Assembly: GCF_963678975.1 (NCBI RefSeq)
Contig: NC_089276.1
Span: forward strand, 22,055,059-22,119,058
Length of the DNA: 64,000 nucleotides
Reading direction: 5' to 3'
Source: Dysidea avara
Taxonomy: Eukaryota > Porifera > Demospongiae > Dictyoceratida > Dysideidae
Shown here: positions 15,298 through 56,200 of the stretch, piece by piece
How the letters are laid out: each line of letters opens with the position of its first letter
How positions within the stretch are numbered: position 1 is the first letter of the stretch
The notes under the pieces: generated by a model
The model's database searches: none
What the model was told of the DNA's origin: nothing
The model's input: only the letters and a program-made list of their open reading frames with translations
Program-made: the position numbers and the translations under genes

Positions 15298-16125
15298 CTA
15301 CACTACTATATACTGACTTGTACATAATCTTGGGAAATAGCTATTTTGATATGCTGTGGTGTTTGCACTTGGATGGATAAAATGAAGTGGATGTTGGTGG
15401 CGAGTGTGTCTGGTTGTTTTTAAGAAATGTTGGGGTATATCTACTACACTAGATCCATATATGACATCATGAAAAAATGACAGTCTTGCAACTTTACGAC
15501 GTTCTCTTAAGGTGACCCAGCCCAATTGTTCTATCATGGCAGTTACACTACTATATGTGCTGTAATTGTTACACACCCATCTTGCACTTCTCCTTTGTAT
15601 TTTTTCCAATGAGTTGATATGTACTTGTTGGTATGGGTCCCAAATGATGGATGCATATTCTAGTATAGGACGAACAATTGTAATATATGCTGATTCCTTG
15701 ACTTTTACAGAACAACTTGATAAATTATGTTTCAAGAAATTTAGTACCCTGGATGCTTTGTTAGTAATGCTATTTATATGGGGGGCCCATGACATAGTGT
15801 TATGCAAGATGATTCCCAAGTAAGTATGGTCAGTTCTAACTTCCAGTATGTGATCATTTAGTCTATATTTACAGAATATAATGGATGGTGACTTGCTGCA
15901 ATGCATGACTACACATTTATTAACATTGAAGGACATTTGCCATACTTGTGCCCATTGAGCTAAACAGCCTAGAAGTTGCTGTGTATCAGCTTCTGTACAA
16001 ATTACTCTGTAAAGTAGACAGTCATCAGCAAAGAGATGTAATGGAGATGATACCTGTTCTGAGATATCATTAATATAAATAAGAAACATCAATGGCCCTA
16101 ATACAGTTCCTTGCAGAACACCTGA
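15298..16125 (-). pseudogene. 5'-truncated LINE reverse-transcriptase fragment
   Basis: The minus strand encodes the C-terminal part of a LINE reverse transcriptase: SGVLQGTVLGPLMFLIYIND, then the catalytic LFADDCLLY, then YLGIILHNTMSW and a thumb/connection region with RPILEYASIIWDPY and IQRRSARW. This order matches the Jockey/CR1 group of non-LTR retrotransposons. The frame is open from about 16,125 to the stop at 15,298. Upstream there is an in-frame stop and no further RT or endonuclease sequence, so the copy is 5' truncated, as is usual for LINE insertions. The homologous frame stays open over about 270 codons, suggesting a fairly recent copy. Confidence 0.88.
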
Positions 16126-16135
16126 ACTCAGTCAG

Positions 16136-28077: not shown

Positions 28078-31000
28078 ATGGCGGGAAACTACACGGACCG
28101 TAATGAACAGGATTATTTCATTCCCTATGTATTACCAATTTACATTAGCAAGTCAGAGGGAGATGAGTTGATATCGCAATACAGTTGCCTTCAAGGTGAA
28201 CCTCTTTTGATTCAGTTTGTATCCAACCTCTTGCCAAGAGGATTTTTCTGCTGCTTAGTTGTTCAACTTCTGCAACAACTACCACAAGGTTGGAACCATG
28301 TTCTTGCTCAAAAAGACATTCATCATACATGCAGTAATTTGATCACATTTTGCTTACCCGGTGCATATTTCTTATCATTATTGGACAAATTATCCTACTT
28401 TGAAGTTCAAATAAGACATCAGAAAGCTGATTATTACCAGCAGTGTCCTGTACATTTATCAGTCCAGGACATTCTATCTAGTGCATTGGCAGCAGTTTGT
28501 GAACAGCTAAGTTATAATAATGGAAGGATCCGCTATGGTTTTCATTGTAAATGTGGTGAGATGAGAGAAGAACACATTGCAGCAATCACTAGGCTGACTC
28601 CTCCTTTTGATTATGCACTGTGTAAATATGGAAGTATAGTTACAACTGCGTTGAAGCATTCTCACATTGTAGAGGTGAACACATGTATTGTATTCGTTTA
28701 CATAGCTACATCACTTATAAATTGCAGGTGAAAAAAAGTTCTCAAGTGGATTCAAAGAATGCTCAAATACCACCAAAACCTGGTATGTATACAGTACATA
28801 TACAATATGTAGCAGTGTTGTTAAAGTGCTGATGTAAAAATTGTAACTTGCATATTATATATGTAATAGATTGGTCACTAACTACCATTGTAGTGTTTAC
28901 TAGTGTGCTATTCTATATAACTTCAATAAACTATATCTGTACACTTGTATATACTTGTCAAAACAGCTTTGTTTCATTAAATAATATCTAGAATAGGTAG
29001 ATTAAAATATGTACTACAACACTATATCGTTGTACATGAGTATATGGTGTGTATTTATTTTCCTGTTTTTGCAGGTGATCAGTCACCAGAATACGTTCTA
29101 ATGAAGCGCTACCATAACAAACTGTTAAAAATTTTACCAGTTTGTGATTTGTCTCCTTATTTTGTGTCAGAGAAAGTTATCTCACTCGCAGATAATGACA
29201 AAATTGTTCATTCTTCAACCTCTCAAGCTGCAGCTCAACTTATACTCGATAAAGTATTACTTCAAATACAGAATGGCAACACTGAGATATTTTATAAAAT
29301 GCTATTGATTATGGAACATTATGGGACTGATGCTGCTGAGACACTATCAGCAGAAATCAAACGTAAATGTGAAGAGAAGCAGTCTGCAAATTCTACAGTT
29401 TATAAACAAGGTATACTTTATTGTACTAATTATTGTGCTAATCAGTAGCTAGAGTGGATGAAAATGTATATTTGGGGCAAGGAAGGCTGGGAAAGAATTA
29501 CGTTTTCAGATGTACATACATGAGTATGATTTTAGATTTAAAATCTCCGCGATCAATCTGCTTTAAGTGTCAAGTACAAAAAACTAAGTGTCTTTTAAAA
29601 CTGTGAACTTTGAGTGGTATAATACATTGATAGAAAGAAACATGACAATTGCAGTTTAGATTGCATGAAAGTGTTGTGATATAAGAGCAATGTTCGTTGG
29701 TGACACAAAGTTACATTGTGCTGCACCTGATTTAGTAATGGTATTTCACAAGTGAAAGTTCACCAAATACTGCTGTTAATTTGCTCAAGTATATACAGTA
29801 GAATTGGAACAATGTACAAATACATCCTCCTAAGCTTCTTTTGCTGCTAAATTGGCTTGGCTCCACGTATGTTTACAAACAGAAAGACACACTCCCAATA
29901 CTGAAGTGGACATGGCTCATGAGAGAAACTGACCTATCACAACACTATACTGTCTTGTACAATAACAATTGATTAGTGGGCATGGCTCCATGTATTATAA
30001 AGCATGCAGACAGCAACAGACATGGATCCGTGCATACCTATAGACCTGCATTTAATACTACTGATACATGGGCAAGGCTGCCTACAGATAGTAATCCCAA
30101 GAAGTGGCCATGGCTCATGAAAAGAAGCTGGGCTGCAGCAGGACTAGACTATGACACATCTGTGTTTGTCAAACTAATCAATTCATTGCACACGTGATCC
30201 AATCTGGGTTAGACCTGGATATTCTATTAAACAGGGATGACCAAGACAAAATGTGACCCGGATGACGTGGGTGACCCAATCTGGCTGGTTGCCTTCTGTA
30301 TTTTTGAAAGGAAATGCTTTACAAGAGCAACCATGTACCTTACCTAATAAAACAGTCAAACACAGCTGAGAGAAGGTTTTATGGAATTACTTATCTAATC
30401 CAAAACAGCCAAGCTGTAAAAAAAGAGTGCGGCCCTGAGAAAGGCTATGGTGAAAAAAGATGTGAAATCCAAGGTGGCGGCCAAGAAATGGCTGTGATGG
30501 TAGGTTAATGGTAAAAATTTTAATAACGACAATTCAAGTGAATTTTGTGCCAAGACCTAGCGGCACCAAATTCACCTGAATTGTTGTTATTAAAATTTTT
30601 ACCATTAACCTACCATCACAGCCATTTCTTGGCCGCCACCTTGGATTTCACATCTTTTTTCACCATAGCCTTTCTCAGGGCCGCACTCTTTTTTTACAGC
30701 TTGGCTGTTTCGGATTAGATTTCACTTCTTTTTGTATTTGTATACCCCAAAGCCGGCCTATGGCCGGCTTTAGGGCTTTTTAACCTGTCATTTTTTCTTT
30801 ACTACAGGAAGAAGAAAAGATGAAGCAGGATGATTTCTTTGTAGCTGACCTCTCTGCAAGGTGATCCTTCTAGCTGATCTCTCTACCGGATGACTTGTTT
30901 GTAGCTGAACTCTCTACAGGATGATTTGTTTGTAGCTGAATTCTCTACAAGGTAATTTCTTCTAGCTGATCTTTCTACAGGGTGATTTGTTTGTAGCTGA

Positions 31001-38294: not shown

Positions 38295-41200
38295 CCCACC
38301 CACCTGCCTGATCACAGTTGCAAGGCTAGAGGCTAAATGAAGAAGTGCACAGTCACCATTTCATGCCACAGTAACAAACTCATGTATCTTTTCTGGATCA
38401 CGTGACTCATATGTATGTTTGGTGTATAACCTATTTTATTTGACTACTTATTAATATTTTTGTGTATAGTACTCTAATACAGTGTGCATTTTTCTGAGCA
38501 CTTCTAATGCAACGCACATAGAATGTTCTAGAGCAGTCTAGAATTTCCATTGATGAGTCTATGTAATATAAATTATATCTAATCAAAAACAGCCAAGCTG
38601 TAAAAAAAGGTGCGGCCCCCATAAAGGCCATGGTGAAAAAAGATGTGAAATCCAAGGTGGCGGCCAAGAAATGGCTGTGATGGTAGGTTAATGGTTACAT
38701 TTTAATAACAACAATTCAGGTGAATTTGGTGCCAAGACCAAGCGGCACAAAATTCACCTGAATTGCCGTTATTAAAATGTAACCATTAACCTACCATCAC
38801 AGCCATTTCTTGGCCGCCACCTTGGATTTCACATCTTTTTTCACCATGGCCTTTATGGGGGCCGCACCTTTTTTTACAGCTTGGCTGTTTTTGATTAGAT
38901 ATCACTTCTTTTTGTATTTGTATACTGCAAAGCCGGCCTATGGCTGGCTTTGGGGCTTTTTTTAACCCATGTGTTTTTTTCTTTACCACAGGAAGAAGAA
39001 AAGAACTTAAAGAAGAATTTTAGTACTTCAATTATTTTTGATTTTATTAGTAATTATACAAATTATATACATATATTTATTACATGCTCATTATTCCCCA
39101 CAGGATTTTTTTTGCAGCTGATCTCTCTACTGGGTGACTTGAAATGTAGCTGAACTATATACAGGATGGTTTCTTTGTAGCTGAACTCTCTGTAACAGGT
39201 GATTTGTTTGCAGCTAAACTCTCTACATGGTGGTGTCTTTATAGCCGAACTCTCTACATGATGGTTTCTTTGTAGCTGAACTCTCTATAAGGTGACTTCG
39301 TCTAGCTGAACTCTCTACAGGGTGATTTTTTTGTAGCTGAACTCTCTGCAGGGTGATTTGTTTGCAGCTGAACTCTCTACATGATGGTTTCTTTGTAGCT
39401 GAACTCTTTACAAGGTGACTTCGTCCAGTTGATCTCTCTACGGGGTGATTTGTTTCTAGCTGAACTTTCTACAGGTGAATTGTTTGCAGCTAAACTCTCT
39501 ACATGGTGGTTTCTTTGTAGCTGAACTCTCTACAAGGTAACTTCTTCTCTACAGGGTGATTTGTTGTAGTTGAATTCTCTACTAGGTGAGGCTGAACTCT
39601 CTACATGGCGGTTTCTTTGTAGCTGAACTCTCTACAGAGTGATTTGTTTGCGGCTGAACTCTCTACATGATGGTTTCTTTGTAACTGAACACTCTACAAG
39701 GTGACTTCTTCTAGCTGATCTTTCTACAGGGTGAATTGTTGTAGCTGAACTATCTACAAGGTAACTTCTTCTAGCTGATCTCTATACAGGGTGATTTGTT
39801 TGTAGTTGAATTCTGTACAGGTGGTTTCTTTGTAGCTGAACTCTGTACATGATGGTTTGTTTGTAGCTAAACTCTTTACAAGGTGACTTCTTCTAGCTGA
39901 ACTCTCTACGGGGTAATTTCTTTGTAGCTGAACTCTCTATATGATGGTTTCTTTGTAAATGAACTCTCTACAAGGTGAATTCTTCTACCTGATCTCTCTA
40001 CAGGGTGATTTGTTTGTAACTGAACTCTGTACAAGTGCGTTTTTGTGGGTGATCTCACTGCAGGTTGATTTGTTTGTAGCTGAACTCACTAAAGGGTGAT
40101 TTTGCTTGTAGCTGAACTCCTTGCATTGTATCTAGTTTCTAGCTGATCTCTCTACAGGGTGATTTGTTTGTAGCTGATCTCTCTACAAGTTGATTTGTGT
40201 GTAGCTGATCTCTCTGCAGGTTGATTAATTTGCAGCCGATCTCTCTACAAGGTAATTTGTTTGTAGCTGAACTGTTTATAAAGTGATTTATTTGTAGCTG
40301 ATCTCTCTGCAGGTTGATTTGTTTTAGCTGAACTCTCTACAGGGTGATTTACTTGTAGCTGAACTCCTTACATTGTGACTAGTTTCTAGCTGATCTCTCT
40401 ACAGGGTGATTTGTTTGTAGCTGATCTCTCTACAAGTTGATTTGTGTGTAGCTGATCTTTCTACTGGTTGATTTGTTTGTAGCCGATCTCTCTACAGGGT
40501 AATTTGTTTGTAGCTGAACTCTGTACAAGGTGCTTTTTTTGTAGGTGATCTCACTGCAGGTTGATTTGTTTGTAGCTGAACTCACTAAAGGGTGATTTGC
40601 TTGTAGCTGAACTCCTTACATTGTGTCCAGTTTCTAGCTGATCTCTCTACAGAGTGATTTGTTTGTAGCTGAACTCTCTATAAGGTGATTTATTTGTAGC
40701 TGAACTCATTACATTGTGTGTAGTTTCTAGCTGATCTCTCTACAGGGTGATTTGTTTGTAATTGATCTCTCTACAAGTTGATTTGTGTGTAGCTGATCTC
40801 TCTGCAGGTTGATTTGTTTGTAGCCGATCTCTCTATAGGGTAATTTGTTTGTAGCTGAACTCTCTATAAGGTGATTTGTTTGTAGTTGATCTCTCTGCAG
40901 GTTGATTTGTTTTAGCTGAACTCTCTACAGGCTGATTTGTTTGTAGCCGATCTCTCTACAGGGTAATTTGTTTGTAGCTGAACTCTCTACAAGTTGATTT
41001 GTGTGTAGCTGATCTCTCTGCAGGTTGATTTGTTTGTAGCCGATCTCTCTACAGGGCAATTTGTTTGTAGCTGATCTCTCTACAGGGTGATTTTTTTGTA
41101 GCTGACCTCTCTTCAGGGTGATTTGTTTCTAGCTGATCTCTCTACAGGGTGATTTTTTGTAGCTGACCTCTCTTCAGGGTGATTTGTTTCTAGCTGATTG

Positions 41201-44200
41201 CTCTACAGGTTGATTTGTTTGTAGATGAACTCTCTACAGGGTAATTTGCTTGTAGCTGAACTCCTTACTTTGTGTCTAGTTTGTAGCTGATCTCTCTACA
41301 GGGTGATTTGTTTATAGCTGAACTCCTTACATTGTGTGTAGTTTCTAGCTGATCTCTCTACAGGGTGATTTGTTTGTAGCTGATCTCTCTACAAGTTGAT
41401 TTGTGTGTATATAGCTGATCTCTCTGCAGGTTGATTTGTTTGTAGCCGATCTCTCTACAGGTAATCTGTTTGTAGCTGAACTCTCTGCAGGTTGATTTGT
41501 TTTAGCTGAACTCTCTACAGGGTGATTGCTTGTAGCTGAACTCCTTACATTGTGTCTAGTTTCTAGCTGATGTCTCTACAGGGTGATTTTTTGTAGCTGA
41601 ACTCTCTTCAGGGTGATTTGTTTCTAGCTGATCTCTCTACAGGTAGATTTGTGTTGATTTGTTCATTGCTGATCGCTCTAAAGGTAATTGATTTGTTGCA
41701 GTTGAACACCCTGCAAAGTGTTTTGTTTGTAGCTGATCACTCTAAAGGGTAATTTGTTTGTAGCTGAACTCTCTCCACAGTGACTTGTGTGTAGCAGAAT
41801 TCTGTGTAACTGAATTCTCTAGAGAGTGACTTAATTGTAGCTGAATTCTCTACAGAGTGCATGACTTGTTTATAGCTGAACTTTCTTCAGTGTGACTTGT
41901 AATGTTCTGAATCTCTATATTTGCTTAACTCTCCACATGGTGACTGTCTTCTTGCTGAACTGTCTATAAGATTAACTGTTTGCAGCTGAACTCCCTACAG
42001 AATAACTTGTGATGTAATAAAATTCTATAATGGAGTAAATAAATGGTAGTTGCTATTCGTCCGGTCCCGGAGTAACAGTTATTCTTCCGGCACTCATCAC
42101 GTGATCTGTTGGGGTATTAATTACACTGAATTACGTGACCCTCGAGGATCATGTGTGCTATTAACTCCGAGATGGACTTATTGTAGATTATCGTTTATTC
42201 ATGAGCGTAAGAATGGGACCCTTCATGGAAGATTGAGATACTCTAATAGAACAGTCAAGGGATATTTTTTAATTCAGGCCATAATGGCACTCCCCTCCAA
42301 GAGCTTTTCACATTCAGATGTGATTTATTGAATGATAAATGGACTGACATGAAATTTAGGTTGAATATTAGGGTAGATTCTGGCTATATAAGCTACTGTA
42401 ACTGGGCTGCTAGGGGTGAATCTCAGCTACTGCATGGACCATGCAAAGATGCTACAGTTACTACCCTTCATGTAGTTATGTAATTAGCTGACCATGCACA
42501 TTCTGGCTACAGTATGATTTTGATTGCAGTGAAACTCATCCAGGATACATGTATATTGTTTTCATAATAAGGTGCCTGAATCCCATAGCTAGTTCAAATT
42601 ACTATTGTAGAAAAATCCTAAAACCTTCGTTACAAAAACATGTTCCAAAGATGTTTGTTATGTTTGCTGAGGCACTAACGAATACCACTAGCACATGTAC
42701 AAATAGAGCAAAACCACACAGAGGATGTAGTATCATCAAAAGTAACGCAAGAACGATGAAATGGCTTGGAACACTTAGAACACCTGATCATGGGATCTCC
42801 ACCATCAGGTAAACGACACAAACAAAAAACATTTACTCTCCGCAGTATTGCCTTGCCTGGAACCTTCATTATATCTTCCTGTGGAAATTTATCGATTGCT
42901 CTATTCTTTAGACATTGTAAAAAATGATTGCGAAACTCAGTTTGCTTGTATACTATTTTGGCAGGATCAATTCCACTGCACAGTGAATAGGCAAATGCCA
43001 AAGAAAAAAGACCGCAACAAGAGCCACCATCCTGCTGTTGAACATCTTGAAATGTCAAGAAGAAATATGAGTGTGGTGTCCTAATCATGGAAGCTATCGC
43101 TCTTTTCGTGTCCAAGGAAACATCTCCACTACGATTGCTATCATAAACCATGACTTGCTTTTCTTTGCAATCCTTATTTGTCACCAACACCCAGTGAGAT
43201 TCATAACATTGTAATACCTGTATGAACTCTCCATCTTCTTGCTCAAAAGTGTTTGTTTGCATTTTCCCAACATCTCGAAAACCACCAAATTGAGGGAATT
43301 TCTTTTTAAGCAAATCCTGTCCAGCATTAACTAATCGTCTATTAAGCCAACCATTGGGATTTTTAAGAATATCAAAATCAGAATACAATACCCTTGACCC
43401 TGAGGTGACATTAAATGCTTCTTCTTTGTCACTTTGAGAACCTTCATCTGAACTAACTGTGATACAGCTGTCTGTTGCAACAGCTGGTGATCTATTCAAT
43501 TTGGATTTCTTGTTGTCTTGCTTTGAGAAACGTTTATGTATTGACACTCCACCTCTGCTGAATTGGTGTTCTGCATGCACAGAACTTCTGCACAGATAGC
43601 AAAACCACTCCTTCTGTTTTGGGACTGCTTTTAATCCAGCACAACGCAAGTGTGCCCATTGTAAACATCCATCGCAGCAAATGGACAGTGATCCATCCTC
43701 TTCCTCCAAATCACATTCGCACACAAGGCAATAATACTTCATACTTCTTTATGATTCAATGGCTTGTAATGCCTTGCTCCATGAAAGATCGGTGAAGTAC
43801 TTTCTAATTCTAGATATGTTAATATTCTCATCAATACATGTACTTGGTAACATCATGGGTCTAAATTCAATCTCGTCTTCACTTAAGGGTAAGCCTTCAT
43901 TCATGGCCTTGACAACAGAAGACTTGGAGACAAACCATTCCAGCATTGCTAAACAAAGGAAAATGAAAATACATGCATCCATGTTTAGCAATTTAGAATA
44001 CACAAATTTAGAATACACAGATCATGTTTCCATGAAAAATTTCAAGCAGAAATATAGGTCTATACACTGAAAGCATACAGTAACAATAAATTATGTAACT
44101 GCATGCATGCATTTGACAAAACCCAGCTTCCATGTACAAAGCTTTGTTAGTATTGTAGTATGCAAGCAAAAGAATTTACACCATTTATAAGCTGTGGGTG

Positions 44201-47200
44201 TATAAGTTTTTTACAGACTGTTTTTCAAGAGGCATTTATATCACAGGTGTGGTGGGCTTGGGAGGGCTTTATATAGGGGCAAATGAAGTGTCAAAGATGA
44301 TTGTACTACTGAGGTCCACGTTTGACTCTCTACGGACTCTCCTTGTACTTCCAAATGATAAAGGACAAGACTGACAAGTCACACATAACACTGTTCCAGC
44401 AGAGCCATGGCCATTGAATGACACCAAACAACTACTTGTGGCTTCTACGGGGTCTGATGAAAAAACCAGACTCGTCACAACTCAGACAAGGACACAGTGG
44501 GAAATGATAGTCTAGTAGATTGGCTATCCTAAAAATGTCAGTTTGATTTTGTGTGCATGGAAATCAGGTTATCTTAAAAAGTTCAATTACGTAATAAACA
44601 AATTTCAGGGATTTTATTACTCAGCTATACTTTGGGTGGAATTATAATTTGTTGAACTCTGCCCCCTGAATATTTACAAGAAAGAAGTCTGTATGTTTTA
44701 AGTCACATCTCACATGTCTCATAAACCATAGAATAAATACGAATAACTCACAAATGCTTGAATTTTAACACAAGGAGTGTACACGTGTTTAGAGAAAATG
44801 TGTGCCTTATGTTGTGTACAGTGGTGAAGAACTCACAATACACCTGCATATGTACCAAACAAACTGTAATATAACAGAAGGCATGCATGTGGAAAATTAA
44901 CTTGTAATATTACATCATTAATAGTACTCAATCATTAACCAACTTGCTTTAACCATTATTGGCTGAAAAAAAAAATTTTACAAGACATCAGTCACAAAGT
45001 TTATTTTGAGTGAGCAAAGTGAGACTTCAAAGTGAGACGTCTTCTCCTATAATACATGCCAGCATGCTATATTTGATCACAACTCCTAACATAAATTACG
45101 TATAAAGTGTTGGATGTTAAATCAAAACAGATATCCAGTGGCTTCATTATCCTTGACATACTATGGATTTTTCAATATCTGGGTGGAGACTGATGAGTTT
45201 ACTTCAAATATCAACACGTACTCTCCATCACCTTCACTCTGCCACCTGTATAATTTGACTATAACTGACAAACCTGGCATTGACACACAGAGCTTTGAGC
45301 ATATGCTTAATTACATGCTTTGGGTAATTGTTTTATGCTGGTAGTAAAATAACACGTGGTAGAGATGGCGGTGGGTGTTCTATAGCACTAAAATAAATTA
45401 AAAGGCAAAAACCAAGAAGACGAATTTAGATTTTCTTTGTACTCATTCACTCAAACATAAAAAAGGATTTAATACGTGCTGGTCATTTCCATTATGTTGA
45501 GTTGTTGGGGAACCTACATTAACATTTTACATAACATTATACCTCTCTCTTGATCTCTAGGATGCATCTTAAGGAATGCAACAGGCTTGTTAAATGCTTT
45601 CTTCTTCTTTGGTAAGCCAACAACCGTCAAATCTCCACCTTTAGGTCTTCCCCTTTTCTTCATGGCACTAGGTAGCTGTACGGTAGATATGTCTATGGTT
45701 ATGAAAAAAGTAGTATGCATGCACTGATGAATTAAATAAGGTATGCATGTACCTCCAGAACAATCGAGAGACTCAACAACAGTAGTAGCATCAGATGGAT
45801 CTGTTTGAATATGCTGTTTCATAGTAACACTTTGAGACACTTCTGGATAGTCATGAAGGGAAATCTCATAACTTTGTTCGTTTGTAGAATCTTGTCTTGC
45901 AGCACTTCTTTCATTTTCTTCTGCAATGGATATATCATCAGGTGTGTCGTCATGGTCACTGTCGTGGTGTTCATTCGCACCATGATCCTCCACATTAGCT
46001 ATCTCATCTAAAGCATCAACAGTGCTCAAATCATCTAAAATATCACACAAATTATAAGTTCAATGTACATAATATTGACTTTTTGAGTATGAAAATTAGA
46101 AGTAATTAATCAGGTAGCACCTAGCATAGAGTAATTAATAAAATTGTTAGAAATGGGTTGAGGGTTATAATTGCCTTAAAGATGTTTCTGTGTTAATTAT
46201 CCATAAACAATTCTGCAAAATGTTCTAATAGATCAGATGAGCCTCGAACATCCACGATCCCTAAATACAGTACAGTAAATTTTATGAGTGATCATGTGAG
46301 TAATTACACGTGACTTTGGTGGCAATTTCAAGTGTTAATATAGAATTAGTACACCAAAGCTCAAATTGAAAAATATTCACTCTAACAGAGTATTCATCAC
46401 AATGAATATTCAAGTTCTCATCTTTAATTATTAGGTTACTAATCAATCACAAACAGAGCTTTATGGGGGTGCCACCAGCTCTAAAATTAGTGAGACATTT
46501 TTTTCCTACAACAGTATATACCTTCACGGTATTCTACAACTTGAGCACGATTGTACTGTAGGCATACAAATTTTCAAGGTATATAATTATCAGTGCCTTA
46601 GCCAGGTAACTAACTTCCACAAAATTTTTATAACTAACCATCATTAGCTATACTTTCTACTCCATCACAACATTCCACTGACACATGATCCCCTCGCTCC
46701 CAAATTTTTGCAATCTCTTCTAAACAAGCAAGCCTTGAGTTGAAGTCCTTCATGGATACTTCCGATGCCAACGTAGCCAATCTCTGAGTAATCCTATTCG
46801 CTTTCCTAAACTTCTCATGCTGAGAAAGCACTGCACGCTTTGGCTGTGTAACCATGCTAACAGGGATAGAATCTCCATCCGTAAACACATAGTGTTCATT
46901 CTGATCCTGTAAAATAAGCTGGCTTGATCTGTAGTACTCTAGTGTCCAACGCTCCGCACACAATGCAGGCTGGAACAGTGGCAAATTAGACTTTTGGCAA
47001 ATGGCTAATATATGCTTACATGGCAGCTGCATTGCTTTTCTAAAAGAACAATTACAATCTTCTGAAGATGCAGAAATGTGAATTTTGCTTGATGATTCAC
47101 ACTCGTATGTATCACCTTCCTCTGGTTTCAACTTAACCTTACTAACCAAATCAATCTGCTTTACTATGTAAGAGAGGGCAAAGGGAGTGACCACCTGCAT

Positions 47201-50200
47201 GTACTGACTCTTGACAGAACCTTTAGGAAATGGCTGGGGAGGAGTCTTCTGAAATAGTGTAATGGCTCTGTGGTCTCGTTCTACATGAAGACTTGACAGA
47301 ACCTTCAACAATTCACGGCAAAACTGAGGGAGACGTGCAAACTTTGACATAACAGACTTCAACTTCTGGTTAATGCTCTCCACACGATTGTTGGTATGGT
47401 TTTGAAACATCAAGTTCTCATCTTTTAAGCCACACACCCACTCATCTCTTATTTCATGCCAATTGTCATTGAAATAATCCAGCACTATTTTGAGCTTAGT
47501 TTGTTTTAATTCTTCGTAAGCACTAAAATAGGCTTCTTCGTTAGTAGCATATGACATTCTTTGCAAGATGTCTAGCACATGTGACCTCTCTGCTGCTGTA
47601 ATGCCCATTTTGTTACTGGTGATCTCTCTCCGAAAGGTCCTTAAAACATGATACAAGCATATCAACAATTTAGCACCGGGGAACTCTTGCAGAAGCACAT
47701 TTCTTTCCGTAAAATCTTTGTCGGACATGATGGTTAGTGTTCTTACCCAATCTTTATTGTGGTTCTTGAATATCAATGCCATTGCTGTAATGGTAACTGC
47801 ATCTTCATTTGCAACCAACCACAGTGATACAATCTGACTTTCTCCATTTCCATCTTCAACTAGTAAAACATATAAGGGCATTCTGAGTTCATTCAGTTTG
47901 TGTGTTGCATCGATGAACAACATCTCTGGGAATCGCTTATAGTTTTCAACCATATAAGCATCTTGAAAATAAATTCTAGATAACACGTTATCATCATTTA
48001 CCGTGACTTCAACTATTGCACCTAGAAAAAGTTAATAAGTTATTTTAAATCAATACTATTACCAACCTGGGGACTTCTTTAATTCCTGTATAGCGTCTTC
48101 TAAGGCTTTGCTTTTGTCTGTTGCTGCTTGCGCATGAGTGGCTAAATTATGTATATCCTTCAGTATCACCACATTTCCACTCTTCGCCGACATATGTTGT
48201 TGCACTAGTTTCTTATCCGCTTTTAATTCTACTACCATGGTGGTAGCCTCATCTTGTAAAGTAACATCTAGTCGCCTCTGCTGGGGATAATGTCCAAATA
48301 TCACCTAAAGAATGAAACAAGATGATCACAGTAAAAATGCAATCTAGAGCTTTCTCATACAAACTGCAGCGTCAAAACACTATCCATCAGCATTGTAAGT
48401 GGGTTGAGTCATTTCAGATTATCTGGGACATTCGGGTCATATTTTGCTTGGGTCAAGTGGGTCTCTCATGCTTCATAGAATACATGAATGAAATCACATG
48501 CAATGACAAATTAGGAGCCACCCGCCACCTTACGATTCAAGAATGCATTTTGTTATTCTTGGAGATATGTACAGCCACACCCACTTATTGAAAAATGTGC
48601 TGCTCTACAGGTATATGCATGGAACTACCCCCACTTATCGTGTTGTTGTTTGTACATAACTATAGTGTGCCATCAAGTTTGTTGTAAGTTATGCTAACAT
48701 GGAGCCACACTCAATTATTCGAGTACTAATCTAGTTATGTTTTGGTTGTTATGAATGATATTCTGAATAATGTATGGAATAAATGCATCATAATCCTGGG
48801 GAGATGGGAAATTTAACTTCAAATTTTGCTTAGGATCTACTACTCTTCCAAATTAATCTGGTCATACCCGGATCACTATATACCCTTTTGCAAATACGAT
48901 AACAAGCCAAAGTAAAATGACTGACTTTGCTAAGTTTATGATTATGGTTGGAGTTGATTGAAGTCACTACCAGGTGCCTTCCATCCTGTGATGCCCGTAT
49001 CTTGATCTCAGCTGGGCAATCCTTTTTAATAGTGCTAAAACAAAAATGCATTTAAATAATAAATAAGGCACCATAAAGTTATTTAGTTTGTCATCCTCTT
49101 TGCAACATTACAAGTGGACAGATTGAGCTATATTTTTGTAGTCTAGTTGGATATCTCACATGACTCAGAATGCAAAATTCTTGTCTGTTCTATATAGCTA
49201 GTTACAAACTTTAAAGATGCCAAGAGGCTGCACTGAGACACCATTTCGGTAAACTTTCTGTGATGAGGTGGGAAATAGCAATGTGAATGGGAATGAGAGA
49301 CTAACAATTAACTTTGTCTAACTAATTTTGCAATTAAATTTCTTGCCTTACGATAAAACATATTTATTTACTGTATAGTCCAAATTAGGGCTGAGACAAA
49401 TGGTTCAAAACTTCAAACCTTTGTTCGGTTTCACAACATTCGACTACTGCTTTAACCTTCCAAAGCTTTGTTACCATGGATACTAGCATGTTAAACTACG
49501 TAGTTCCTTGAGTATAAAACTTTAGTGGGCAACTTGTATTACATGTTGGTATAATTATAGAGTTTAAAAGTGGTTCTGCTAGAGCTGTAACAAAGTGAGA
49601 GCTTGTACTACAGTATACAAACTAATAACCATCAATTGTGTTCATTAATTGCTGACACTACATCTTCGAAGCTTTGGTAGCATTTCCAAAAAGAAGCTTC
49701 GGAGAATGCATTTGGACATTTATTTCAGCCCTAGTCCAAATCAAGATAGATATCTATGGAAGAAGGATAACAGCACTTGACTATTAAAAGATTTTCAATC
49801 ATTCTTCAAATTTTATGTGCTTACACAAATTCCACAAACGATCTGCATTATTGTACCTTGCAAGTACAAATCAAATAAACCTGAATTCGCTTTAAGAACT
49901 CTAAAGTAGAGTTCACTACTCAAGACTAGCTACTTTTTCTTCCTTCTGCAAATAAATTCTAAAGGAGGCAACCACTTGACATTTTTGAAGTCACTAGTGG
50001 GGTAAATTTTAAGTTCAAATTAGATCAAACCCCCACTATTCTCCCATGTATGCTTGGGAGGGGGGATAGGTGTATAAACACTGATGTGGACAGAAAGAAA
50101 TAAAGGTGGCCTGTAATTTACAGCATTTTTCACTCAGATGCAAACTAATTTTCCCAGCAGAAACTAGTTATTCTATCATGATTATGTCATACACAATACA

Positions 50201-53200
50201 GCTGTGTGTCTCTTTCTCTCACTCTCACTCACACGCAAACTATGATAGCTACTTGCAGTAGCAAAAATGATGTGCACAGTGAATAGCAACCGAGAGTCAT
50301 GATGGCAACTTACAGTTGGTTAGGGCGCTCTCCTTTGCTTTCACTTTTGTACTTCTTTCCTCCTTCAACACAACAATAGGTGATTTCAGAATAGACCAAG
50401 CTGGGGTTAAAGGTTCTATTGGGTGCTCTCTGCTTGGCTGCTTTAATCGTTCTGCTGTCTCTAGTAGAAAACTGAACAAAATGCCGCTTCTGATAATTTT
50501 TTATCTCCTGTTCTAAGGCTGAAAATGACCCAAATTTACTTCCTACTTGTATATCGAAGCTTGTGTTGGTCATCACCTGCCTGGGAAATCCTTGACAGCC
50601 ACCACGCGGTAAATAATAGATCACGTTAGTAAATTATAGATCACGTGATGAGTGCCGGAAGAATAACTGTTGCTCCGGGACCGGACGAATAGCAACTACG
50701 TAAATAAATTAGCCGAATGCTCTATTAGGGTGACTGTTCTATTAGAGTATCTCGATCTCGCATTTGCTACACGGAGTTGCCTTTCGAATCATAACTCAGT
50801 GGTTTGTAATCCGATTCTTCTGTACTACTGCAAGGACTTTCTATGAAGATTATTCCAGCTATACACCGATTTTCAGCTCATTGCTCTAAGCGGTTTGCCT
50901 AGTAGGCGTGAAAACTAATACTTTTTTATTCATAAAAATCGATCGCGTAATTGTGACACAGGTTGGGTTTTGTGTCATATCTCCGTGGTCTTTATCTCGA
51001 TTCCTTTCAAACCACCAAAAGGCACTCCTACGATGGTTACTCCATCTACATAGCAATTTTCAACTCATTCCATGAAGCGGTTTACCCTGTAGGCGTGACA
51101 ACAAATTGTTTTACGCGAATAATCGGTCATAACTCCTGAACCATTCATCGAATTTGTACCAAATTTGATGCTAGGATTCGCCTTTGGACTCCCTTTCTGT
51201 GTGCCAAATTTCAAGGCGATCGGAGTACGCGTTTGCTTGTTATAGCAATTTTTGCAAGTGTGCGAAAAGATGAAGAAGAAGAAAAAAAAAACGAAGAAAA
51301 AAAAACGAAACTTTAGCAGCTCGTATCTCGGAAATGGCTGGAGCGATTTCCTTCAAATTTGGAATGTAGACAAATGGCTGGAGCGATTTCCTTCAAATTT
51401 GGAATGTAGACTCCCTTGGCTGGCGGGCAACTGTGTAGCAAATTTGGTTCCAATCAGATAAGTGCTCACCGAGATACAAAGGTGTGAAAATGGCGTTTTC
51501 GTTCTTCCTGTCAATATACTCACGGTGTGGCGCGCCGGCTTCTTGGGCCGCACGACACACTACCGTGTGTCTTGATAATTTTACTATTCTGGTGTAGTAA
51601 ACTAAAACTTTCATGTATAAGGTATGCAGAAAGTAATTGAGGTGAGCAACTGACAGCAGTGGCCGAGTGGAAAAGGTTTGGGTATATAGGAGTGGAGATC
51701 TCTGGTTTGAACCCTGCACATTCAATGTTTTCATGAAGGTTTTTTTACTTCTTGGTTACTGTTCTGTTAGAGTATCTCAATTGCATTTTCACATTATTTG
51801 GTTTTTGCCTTATCTAATATTCTCAGTATTCTGGAATCACAAAAGGTCTGTGTACAATGATATGGTCAGCCTATCTGCACACTGATTTTAAGTTGTTTTT
51901 GTCAGTAATGTATTGTGCAGGTGTGACAAAAAATCACACTTGCAATTTTTGAAAATTGCTTGTAACTTCGCAGAGTTATGGAAATTTTGTTGTAACTGGT
52001 GCGAACAGTAAATTAACGGAATAAAAATAAAATGAACTTTGAAGGCGGGTATCTCAAAGATGGCTGGACCTGTTTAGTCAAATTTGGTATGGACGATGTG
52101 GAACGTTCCACAGAAAAATGGGCTATTTCTGTTAAGCCATTACTGAGGTACAAATGCGTGAAAATCACTTTCCTATAAAATACTCACTTGTCTGTTGAGT
52201 GCCCAGATGCATTGGCTCTTTGACCGCATGGCACACTATCGTATGTCCTGATACCACACTTAGAAATAACGAATGTCATCAGTAACACGCTATATGTAAT
52301 TATTTATTTTCAGAATCACACTTTCACACTACAAGGGAAGAAACTGTTTCTCCAACACGTGAAGAAACGGAAGGTTAGTGCTATAATTTAGATCCCCTAT
52401 ACATTGGACTGCATGTAAATTCTTGAACTGATTGTACTAGAATTAATTGTGCAGTTTCTATATATGCAAAAACAGGGCACGTGGGCACAAACTACACCCT
52501 GTCACTCAAAAGGTCATATCTCAGTACTGGAACAGAATATTTGTAATCTGTAACTGGCATCATGATGCCAATTAAATGCTTACTAAGAGCTGAAAATTGC
52601 AGCATAATGGTACTAAAAGTTATGAGTGATGGACATTTGCAAAAATAGGCTAAAATCATGTGCCCCCACATGCCCTATATTCGCAGGCTTAGTCACATAT
52701 GTTCGTCATTACATTACAGTATTTGCTTTTATGATACATAGTTCAAACTTCTCAACCTTGTTTTGTTAAACTGCTAAGACAAGTTGATTATAGTGTATTT
52801 ATCATTGGGGTACTATAAAAGCACAGTGTTGTTTGCTAGCAACAATGTATACAGAGCTACAAATTGTAAATTATAAACTCATTTTGTGCTATCAGTGTGA
52901 TTAAAGCTCTGTGGTATTGCCTAAACCCTTTATTCGGTATTTTGTAAAAAATCTTTGTATAGATATTAGTGCTCAAACGATTAGCCGAATATTTGGATTA
53001 ATATTCATTTGCATTGTAGCCAAATCATAAAATTAATAAACGATTATTTGCACATGATCATTTATATGGTGACACATGATTAGCTGTCATCACTAACGAA
53101 GTGGAAGACTATGCTAACAAAAAGGAAAGACTATATTGATAAAGTGAAGAGCAGTAATAGCATTAGGCAGCCACTAATTGGTGAAGATGTACTAATTCCA

Positions 53201-56200
53201 CGGTGAATAAGCGTAAGACTTTGTATAGATTTGTGGCTATACTCCAAGTACTTCTACTTTGTTACAAATACTTTCTATCACAGTGTCGCTGTGATAATCC
53301 TTTCAGAAAGGGCACTTTGGTATCTCTTTTTTCTCAGTAAGTTATTCATATGAAGCCACAAACCTGTTTGTGGTTATTTGTAGGCTTCTTGGTAGTGGCC
53401 GCCTTAATTACTGAATTGCATTCATAGCAATGAAACCTTACACCAATTATTCGACTAATTTTGTAAGAGCTGAGTGAATATTCAAATACAATAAACCACT
53501 ATTCTTTTATTTAATGAAATGCTTGTATACCATAAAATTATGTGTAAAAATGGGGTGCATGTATGTAGCTATGATCTACAATATTTAGTCATTTTTTTGC
53601 CATTTATCTTGAATAATTAAGCTTTATAATCACCTGCTGTAATTATTGCTGTTATGAGTCACACAGAAAATTAAGTATTTTCACTGTTATTACATTTCTG
53701 TGCATAAGTTATTAACTAGCCATGTACATTTAAACATAAATGCGTATATTTTTGCTTTAGATACAGAGTCACTGTTACCAGAGTGTGAAGTCTTCATACA
53801 ATATTACAGCCAGATAGTCAACAACATGTCTGCTAAATCATTGGCTCCACATTTTGTTGCTCACAAAATTATATCACCAGATGATCAAGAAGAAATCTCT
53901 TCTGTTGCTTCATCAAAGAAGGCAGCAATGTTACTGCTAAGTAGAGTGTCTTCTGCCCTGGAAGCTGGAATTGTTAAGAGTTTTTACAAGTTTCTTGATA
54001 TCACTGAGCATTGTGGGAGTAATAACAGTAGAACTGTCTCACTTGCTATTACAGAGAAGCTGTTGAAGATAAAGGGTAACCAAGAGGAGATTGGTCCTAC
54101 CCTTGTTGAGAGAGGTATTACTGAATATACATATTGAATTATAATCTGTAATTCCAAAACAGCATCACCATTATTATACAATGTTCCAAAGTGTATACAG
54201 CAGTGCTGTGTCTGTAAAATATGACCAGGATGGTGAAAATTGGGCATTTGGACACAAATCACAACACACAGTTCTTGAGTACAATATCTCTGCTAATAAT
54301 TGCATGGCCATAGCATAATTGTATATAAAGTTATAGCATGAATCATAATGAAGAGACAGGAAAAATATGTGCCATCATTAATGGTTTTCACAATCCTGAT
54401 TGCAAATATATTATATGCACTGTCAAAACTACACTTTAATGCTGCTACCAGTACTGTGTAACTGCAGCATCACTAGTAATTTGTGTCTATATATTTTGTG
54501 CTAGTAGATAATACACAAAGATATTGCATATTGCCAGACATTCATGTATTCAGCAGTTAACCTGTCAGGTAGAGCAACCAGCTATATTAAACTTGTAACA
54601 TTGTAATAAAGTGGTTATCATACAATACGGTAGTACTGTATATTAAGATTTGGGTCAGCATTGTAAGTGGGCCGGGTCATCCAGATTACCGTACAGCGTA
54701 ATAATTTAACGGGGGGAAATTTTGATGAATTTGGTGAATTGTTGCAATTCGTCAAATTTTCCTTGTCAATGCTCACGTGACTGGTTAATTAGAATACTGA
54801 AGTCAGTGCATTCATCAAAATTTTCGTTGTAAATATTTGACAATTGTGAATTCGTCAAAATTTCCCCCTGTCAAATTATTACGCTGTACGGTATCTGGAT
54901 CATTTGGGTCACATTTTGTCCGGGTCAAGTGGGTCTTATCCATGCACTTCACTGAATATCTGGATGAGATCACGTGAGACTATAAGTTCGATTGTATTGG
55001 TGGAAATGCAGTTGTAAACACTCAAGAAACTTACACGGAGCCACACCCTCCTTCCAGGAATATGCTTTGCTGTCTGTGTGGGATATGTAGAGCCACACCC
55101 ACTTATCGGAATTGTATCGGGTGTTCTCTGTGGGCATGCATGGCATCACCGGATCCGTGTTGCTACTAGAAATGTAGGTAACTAACTTCTGGAAATTCTT
55201 AATTGCTGTAGCTGCATGTGGACTTGCGTGGAGCCACACCCACTTGATAATCCGTATGTGGAGCCACACCCACTTGATAATACATAGCTACTCACTTCTT
55301 GCAGACAATCCTTTCTATATTGTAAAAAATACAGGGCTAACTATTGGAACTTGGAACTTGTGGACTTTTAATCTAGCTCTTGAGGCACGCCTCTATTTTA
55401 ATTAAACTGGGTCACATGCTGATCAGATCCGGGTTCCATCTGGATTACTATTCGGGTCAAGTGGGTCAACAGTACTGACCCTCTTACAACGCTGATTTGG
55501 GTTTTTCTGCAAAAATAAATAAATTACCCAAAAACCAGCTTCACAATTCCATCCTGGCACCTTGGCAGTATTGGTTAGGTATAGCCAAGTCCAAAAGTGC
55601 CTTCAGTATGATCCTAAAGGCTTCCAGTATATTGTTACAAAATTAAAAAAAAAATTATTCAATGGAATTGTAGTATCTGGACACGTGCACGCACTATGAT
55701 GTAATACATTATGCTGTAATGTATGCGTGCATGTACATATGTAGTTGTAGAGCCTCTGTGTGCTTTAGTTGTTATTGTAGTTGCTAGATTGTAGTTGTGT
55801 GTTGTAGTGCTATTATTATTGATTCTAATGATCTAATAATCCCGACACTACAGGAATTTTCTACTGACTAACTGCCTACCTGACTAACTGCCTGCCTACC
55901 TGACTAACTGCCTGCCTACCTGACTAACTGCCTGCCTACCTGCCTGATGCCTTCAGACAAGCGTAACTCGATAAAAACTAAGGCTATGGGCTTGATTTTT
56001 TCACTGTTCGATGTTACTTCGTCTCGAGACGTGCCTTTTGACATACGACAGTGCATACAATGCACACATCATGGACTTACCTTTGTCCTCCTTTGTGTCC
56101 CATTTCTTTTTGCTGATAGCTCATAGTGTCGATTCGCGGTAGCACAATGCATGGCTTCCCTACAGTATGTTTGTAAACTGGAATCGTACATTTTTCTATG

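Follow-up and report, generated by a model that had tools for sequence, protein, structure and literature searches.

Does a sponge transposon carry, as part of its own transposase, a device against the silencing machinery of its host? This question is raised by an element in a 64,000-nucleotide stretch of the Dysidea avara genome (RefSeq assembly GCF_963678975.1, contig NC_089276.1, positions 22,055,059 to 22,119,058 of the forward strand; the whole of this stretch is hereafter called the window), in which a first-pass annotation had described an animal Mutator-like element (MULE) joining a SWIM-type transposase to a PHD-Ulp1-PHD protease. The anatomy of the gene bears out that combination. 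The element extends from 42045 to 50700, with the transposase gene on the minus strand, and has terminal inverted repeats (TIRs), its limits being set against the ends of sibling copies. We read it as a Mutator-like transposon of the ZSWIM1/3 type with one long multidomain transposase ending in PHD1-Ulp1-PHD2, which would tether a SUMO-protease-like domain against silencing, a reading held tentatively and given slightly less than an even chance. It is built on the anatomy of the gene, its joined frame in relatives, the constraint on its tail, the recurrence of that tail and a conflict between trees, each established at the level of sequence.

The gene model comprises seven exons, all on the minus strand, and six GT-AG introns, and the exons joined in frame give 1,231 codons. 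Exon 1 (50314–50573) provides the ATG and a ZSWIM3_N-like N-terminus (PF21599, 47.7 bits against a cut-off of 27.8), exon 2 (48926–49034) contains the end of the FAR1/ZSWIM3_N-like domain, where both models score under their cut-offs, and exon 3 (48067–48304) leads into exon 4 (46639–48021), which encodes the MULE/RNaseH-like transposase core and the SWIM motif. The exon 4 motifs FIDAT, SDKD, CxxH and NNRxES (codons 238–421) are candidates which we take, by their familiar pattern, to represent the acidic (DDE) triad. An acidic spacer (exon 5, 45753–46034) and an RGRP AT-hook motif (exon 6, 45543–45692) follow, and exon 7 (42675–43948) encodes a linker and then PHD1-Ulp1-PHD2. The transposase scored 62.4 bits with the MULE model PF10551 (cut-off 27.6), and a score of 132.9 bits with PF21056 (ZSWIM1/3 RNaseH-like), over its cut-off, together with PF21599 places it in the ZSWIM1/3-type lineage. 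The FAR1 Pfam model remained under its cut-off in the window gene; the CxCx(n)CxH motif of SWIM is present, with a Pfam score of 17.9 against a cut-off of 19.6 (17.8–18.7 in MULE kin). Thus, of the Pfam assignments proposed in the first-pass annotation, MULE (PF10551) and PHD (PF00628) stood over their cut-offs, while SWIM (17.9/19.6) and the Ulp1 model C48 (15.5/20.7) fell short. The same scan gave no match to PF12017 or any other P-transposase model in the window exons, and the P element superfamily was rejected for the window element on this basis. The FAR1/FHY3 and ZSWIM1/ZSWIM3 families (PF03101, PF21056, PF21599) have transposase-type domains in common with it (FAR1 under cut-off) and differ in being host genes, by Pfam name. 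Exon 4 of the window and the MULEs L058, L061 and L064 matched the ZSWIM1/ZSWIM3 RNaseH-like model with 117–135 bits (cut-off 27.2), and because of these strong matches the four may be candidates close to the origin of the ZSWIM1/ZSWIM3 host genes; a literature search returned no paper with both ZSWIM3 and transposase.

Whether this gene encodes one fused protein or two is judged chiefly from its relatives. The only break in the gene model of the window copy is an in-frame stop at the boundary of linker and PHD1 (43749–43751, minus strand; codon 874), which is private to that copy, the codon being a sense codon in all five siblings; as it stands, the window copy could yield at most an 873-residue part without the tail. 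The earlier description of two paired proteins is not supported by the relatives: P0001 (the C1 copy, identical), P0002 (70%) and P0009 (47%) each possess an unbroken frame from the linker through PHD1 and Ulp1 to PHD2. L005 belongs to another clade of MULEs and has suffered an internal deletion; here the segment on the AT-hook side continues into linker-PHD1 in one frame, and an overlapping frame encodes its Ulp1-PHD. Since the segments corresponding to exons 6 and 7 lie in one open frame in L005, the join between these exons is independently supported, and a separate cargo gene was rejected in view of the joined frames of these four relatives. Additionally, the 511-residue frame P0018 combines a SWIM motif scoring 19.0 bits (cut-off 19.6) with an RGRP motif, a damaged Ulp1 part and the start of a PHD finger; it matched the 13-sequence profile at 5.8e-27 and, taken alone, matched neither the C48 nor the PHD model.

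The protease domain (42891–43394, minus strand) agrees with the Ulp1/SENP fold, and the complete catalytic set that had been reported between two PHD fingers is indeed present, as His (codon 1059), Asp (1077), Gln (1111–1113) and Cys (1119) in the window and across a 13-sequence alignment in which three members are incomplete by one residue (P0003 and P0005, Cys; L060, His). The C48 model (cut-off 20.7) remained under its cut-off in the window (15.5), P0001 (14.5), P0009 (19.8), L064 (19.2) and L066 (19.4), and was passed by the relatives P0008 (22.0), P0012 (23.1), L062 (32.7), L065 (23.8) and L032 (25.4). Among the matches listed, NEDP1 scored nearly level with the SENPs against the Ulp1 domain. 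A search of the PDB with profile A1 gave PHD fingers alone among the best 60 of 100 matches, and an initial model of the full PHD-Ulp1-PHD structure, built from eight sequences, was poor (pLDDT, the predicted local distance difference test score, 38.6).

Two fingers are indicated by PF00628, which matched the whole protein over its cut-off (42.9 bits) in two stretches, corresponding to PHD1 (43590–43730) and PHD2 (42699–42824), both on the minus strand. PHD fingers that read H3K4me3 are recognised by the Trp of their aromatic cage. In PHD1 the Trp of CxxCxxW is kept in eight of eight sequences (window, P0001, P0002, P0007, P0009, L005, L058 and L059). In PHD2 the window has Pro instead; across the window and its nearer kin the residue is Pro, Leu, Val, Ser, Ile or Arg, in L064 it is Arg, and Trp is present in L060, L065, L062, L066, P0008, P0010 and P0012, among others. 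Within the 13-sequence profile, the segment for PHD2 was closest to the fingers of PHF2, PHF8, SPP1 and BPTF. Ratios of nonsynonymous to synonymous substitution rates (dN/dS) for the window against L057, L015 and L018, in that order, were 0.06, 0.22 and 0.14 for PHD1, 0.14, 0.12 and 0.16 for Ulp1, 0.36, 0.35 and 0.90 for PHD2, 0.37, 0.37 and 0.48 for the spacer, and 0.21, 0.19 and 0.18 for the linker, with 0.13 for the transposase core (L057 pair only); these values are to be read with the qualification that the relatives are decayed, that stop codons were skipped and that dS approaches or exceeds 1 in several cases. L058 and L059 are too distant for most such ratios. Because its Trp is lost in the window clade and its constraint is weaker, PHD2 may be mainly structural.

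The tail is not limited to the window copy. The genome from which the window comes amounts to 550.8 Mb in 108 contigs and includes Wnt genes, which are known only from animals, in keeping with an animal element. Searched with the TIR, it gave 13 matches, representing six two-ended elements and one single end (on contig 14, with 1.45 kb of the transposase side within the stretch examined). The first-pass annotation had allowed that other copies with the same TIRs might consistently lack the Ulp1 unit; instead, a transposase match and the PHD-Ulp1-PHD exon occur in all six two-ended elements, and confinement of the unit to the window copy was rejected. The exons of the six copies are 98.7–99.3% identical in pairs. 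By the gene model none of the six is whole, given the private stop in the window and other lesions in its siblings, namely frameshifting indels in C1, C2, C3, C4 and C8, stops in C4 and C8, and an insertion of 253 bp that interrupts exon 3 of C4; the description of the element as apparently intact therefore had to be abandoned.

The termini also required adjustment. Inverted arms of 62 nt with one mismatch are present as described (42046–42107 and 50638–50699), but the family comparison places the start of the TIR one base further out, this base being C in 12 of 13 ends and G at the left end of the window copy, which gives TIRs of 63 bp at 42045–42107 (left, with the deviating outermost base) and 50638–50700 (right, on the side of the transposase start). 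Consequently, the proposed 10-bp target duplication was rejected in favour of an A/T-rich 9-bp duplication that agrees with the family, TAAATAAAT, at 42036–42044 and again (TAAATAAAT) at 50701–50709. Its two copies differ by no mismatch in the window and C1, by one in C2, C3 and C4, and by seven in C8, whereas crossed left-right pairs (n=30) differ by 4–8. Both the duplication (8–11 bp in MULEs, usually 9; 0–1 mismatches in five of six copies) and the long TIRs common to the copies (62–63 bp) are thus of MULE type. C8 has no matching target duplication; one of its ends matches the TIR over only 39 of 62 nt. Its right TIR matches over 39–40 nt and the element sequence resumes approximately 430 nt inward, as if this end had been split by an insertion. 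A 33-nt inverted repeat (91%) lies at 42225–42257 inside the element and at 50731–50763 just beyond its right end. A minisatellite of approximately 87 copies of a 31-bp unit (window 39107–41803) stops about 240 bp short of the element's left end, with related repeats extending nearer still.

To what extent the tail occurs behind other transposases was assessed from a genome search for Ulp1/PHD (97 rows, 94 of 1,060 candidates being scored, merged into 88 places). At least 16 of the 88 places are preceded by a MULE of the same orientation no more than 8 kb away; they comprise six of the window family, eight other places with Ulp1, and two (L058 and L059) with linker-PHD1 only. Among the matches listed, all 16 MULE pairings within 8 kb have the same order and strand and none has another arrangement. 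Random placement (500 draws) gave a mean of 0.08 pairings and a maximum of 2, using 153 MULE entries (150 and three from a second search, one being a near-duplicate) and guessed lengths for three contigs. L058 has linker-PHD1 like that of the window, yet no Ulp1 within 3.5 kb downstream, and L059 likewise has no Ulp1 downstream within the stretch examined. At least 26 further places lie downstream of a sequence matching the transposase region of L062, a P-like protein (36 of 63 rows used, without a random control). Two such P-like proteins, L062:43-3630 and L066:105-3836 (minus strand), of 1,196 and 1,244 residues, carry a C-terminal Ulp1-PHD in the same frame, with PF12017 scores of 24.8 and 23.8 bits (cut-off 23) and C48 scores of 32.7 (L062) and 19.4 (L066, under 20.7); they have only the tail in common with the window element. 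Two copies of L062 are 99.7% identical over 6.3 kb. Another 46 of the 88 places are without a MULE or P-like transposase among the matches listed, L015 and L018, which carry the window-type linker, being among these 46. The 1.5-kb flanks of L023, L028, L031-L033 and L035-L038 gave no match to the transposase queries, and L028 has a MULE 3 kb upstream. At L065:3237-4295 (minus), Ulp1-PHD follows a MULE that belongs to another lineage and has an ALS2CR8-like N-terminus, and at L036:2336-3061 (minus) a Macro domain (83.4 bits, cut-off 22) precedes a frame for Ulp1-PHD of the same orientation.

Within MULEs, the trees of tail and transposase are in conflict. In the Ulp1 tree the window group and L060/L063/L027 fall together, with L061 outside (100/99), while the transposase tree unites L061 with L060/L063/L027 (100/98); in the approximately unbiased (AU) test, the Ulp1 data reject the transposase grouping (p 0.010), and the transposase data reject the Ulp1 grouping (p 2e-46). 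These results are to be taken with caution, as the groups were chosen once the first trees were at hand, only 11 of 26 and 12 rows entered the second trees, the second transposase tree lacks five members of the first (L002, L005, L006, L007 and L065) and includes L059 and L027 (both under half filled), and the program issued a long-branch warning. Because the trees conflict, we read the tails as having been exchanged between lineages, and PHD/Ulp1 tails as modules that were gained, lost and swapped. The occurrence of the tail on unrelated transposons of the same genome hints at an exchangeable device for host chromatin. A further step, by which PHD/Ulp1/PHD would be a counter-silencing module repeatedly acquired and swapped by unrelated superfamilies (several MULE lineages and P-like elements), every transposase being equipped with a SUMO eraser tethered to it and chromatin reading being divided differently between PHD1 and PHD2 from lineage to lineage, seems doubtful to us.

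In the favoured reading, the FAR1/ZSWIM3-like, SWIM and AT-hook parts would attach the transposase to the TIRs of its own element, so that the SUMO-protease-like domain would be held on the chromatin of the element. There the Ulp1-like domain would remove SUMO from silencing factors, which would keep the element transcribed and cuttable. PHD1, with its Trp kept, would bind histone H3 tails, most likely H3K4me, and would keep the complex at open chromatin or select such targets. An anti-silencing role is plausible by analogy with plant VANC/KIU Ulp1 genes and with SUMO-dependent transposon silencing. In excerpts of the papers cited here and below, parts of the SUMO pathway are required for transposon repression in a fly screen, and SetDB1 recruitment requires SUMOylation of KAP1 or Su(var)2-10 (PMC9406493); the VANC proteins encoded by plant MULEs attach to their own elements, which lose silent marks as a result (PMC10398659), and some VANC genes have Ulp1, the precise function of which is described as unknown (PMC13317346).

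The main rival, which we consider unlikely, holds that the Ulp1 tail serves transposition or break repair by de-SUMOylating repair or end-joining factors, or the transposase itself, at cutting, silencing not being its target. Tails recur behind both MULE and P-like transposases, and both of these depend on host repair. Such a role has also been proposed for the Ulp1 and OTU tails of transposases (PMC2836005), but it leaves two fingers of histone-reading type unexplained. These fingers are central to a rather improbable alternative, in which the tail mainly directs target choice, PHD1 steering insertion to H3K4-methylated open chromatin and the protease being secondary. The PHD finger of RAG2 is thought to steer insertion likewise, and the low dN/dS of PHD1 against all three relatives, its retention in two families without detectable Ulp1 (L058 and L059) and the resemblance of the PHD2 profile part to PHF2, PHF8, SPP1 and BPTF fingers are in keeping with this; however, Ulp1 is constrained as much as the transposase core, and six full copies are too few for a test of insertion preference.

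That the transposase ends at the window stop, with PHD-Ulp1-PHD as a second gene of the element, is quite improbable: a Met is the third codon after the stop that separates the parts, but the stop occurs in none of the five siblings and P0001, P0002, P0009 and L005 have joined frames. Least probable of all is a captured host gene carried without function. MULEs frequently capture host genes, and the 46 places without a listed transposase would suit this account, although at least two of them (L015 and L018) also carry the window-type linker. Against it, furthermore, the dN/dS of Ulp1 (0.12–0.16, three relatives) is close to that of the transposase core (0.13, one relative), the unit is found in six of six copies and in diverged families, and the 16 listed MULE pairings are uniform in order and strand.

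The tethered SUMO-protease-like tail has precedents. That a metazoan MULE with Ulp1 and PHD might be new was overstated, because Bao et al. 2010 had reported Ulp1 in Mutators of hydra and lancelet, citing Repbase Reports of 2008 and 2009, and the legend of their Figure 1e refers to Ulp1 and PHD of Ginger1 and Mutator transposases (PMC2836005). Like the window element, the hydra and lancelet MuDR are animal Mutator transposons with Ulp1; the comparison with them, made by description alone, concerns domain content and not layout (the flanking of Ulp1 by two PHD fingers, the linker, the ZSWIM1/3-type core). Ginger1-9_HM of Hydra likewise has a C-terminal Ulp1 and PHD on its transposase (PMC2836005, Table 1), but Ginger1 has a gypsy-integrase-type transposase and 4-bp duplications, CCGG or CCGT (PMC2836005); identity with it was excluded, as the window element has a 9-bp A/T-rich duplication and no integrase domain among its Pfam matches. 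Kaonashi/KIU of plant VANDAL MULEs similarly combines Ulp1 with a MULE and is linked to silencing escape, but there Ulp1 lies in the VANC gene, one of three coding genes, of MULEs without TIRs, and the word PHD is absent from the main text (PMC13317346); the TIRs of the window element and its Ulp1 in frame with the transposase exclude this identity. Rehavkus has a PHD finger in a MULE-like transposase and differs by a minisatellite ahead of the 3' TIR, with no Ulp1 named in the main text (PMC6446971), and TransibVDJ/RAG1-RAG2 also brings a PHD finger to its transposase, but in a separate Kelch protein and with no Ulp1 named in the text excerpted (PMC4411706). No word beginning with Ulp occurs in the main texts of PMC6446971 and PMC13359780. 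By title and abstract, subscription papers and Repbase being outside the scope, the literature gave no report combining P element, Ulp1 and PHD.

Transposons must be expressed despite host silencing, of which SUMO is a part in the animals studied, and a transposase that includes a SUMO-protease fold and fingers of histone-reading type in the same protein would be a direct, testable counter-weapon. The recurrence of the tail behind MULE and P-like transposases in one genome amounts to a natural experiment on its benefit to transposons, and since both recent siblings and diverged relatives are available, loss and exchange of modules could be dated and set against how well the elements have fared.

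Elsewhere in the window, a reverse transcriptase fragment is located at 15301–16131 (minus strand; PF00078, 46.0 bits, cut-off 29.6), and frames at 53661–54134 and 28984–29445 show weak CARD matches under the cut-off.

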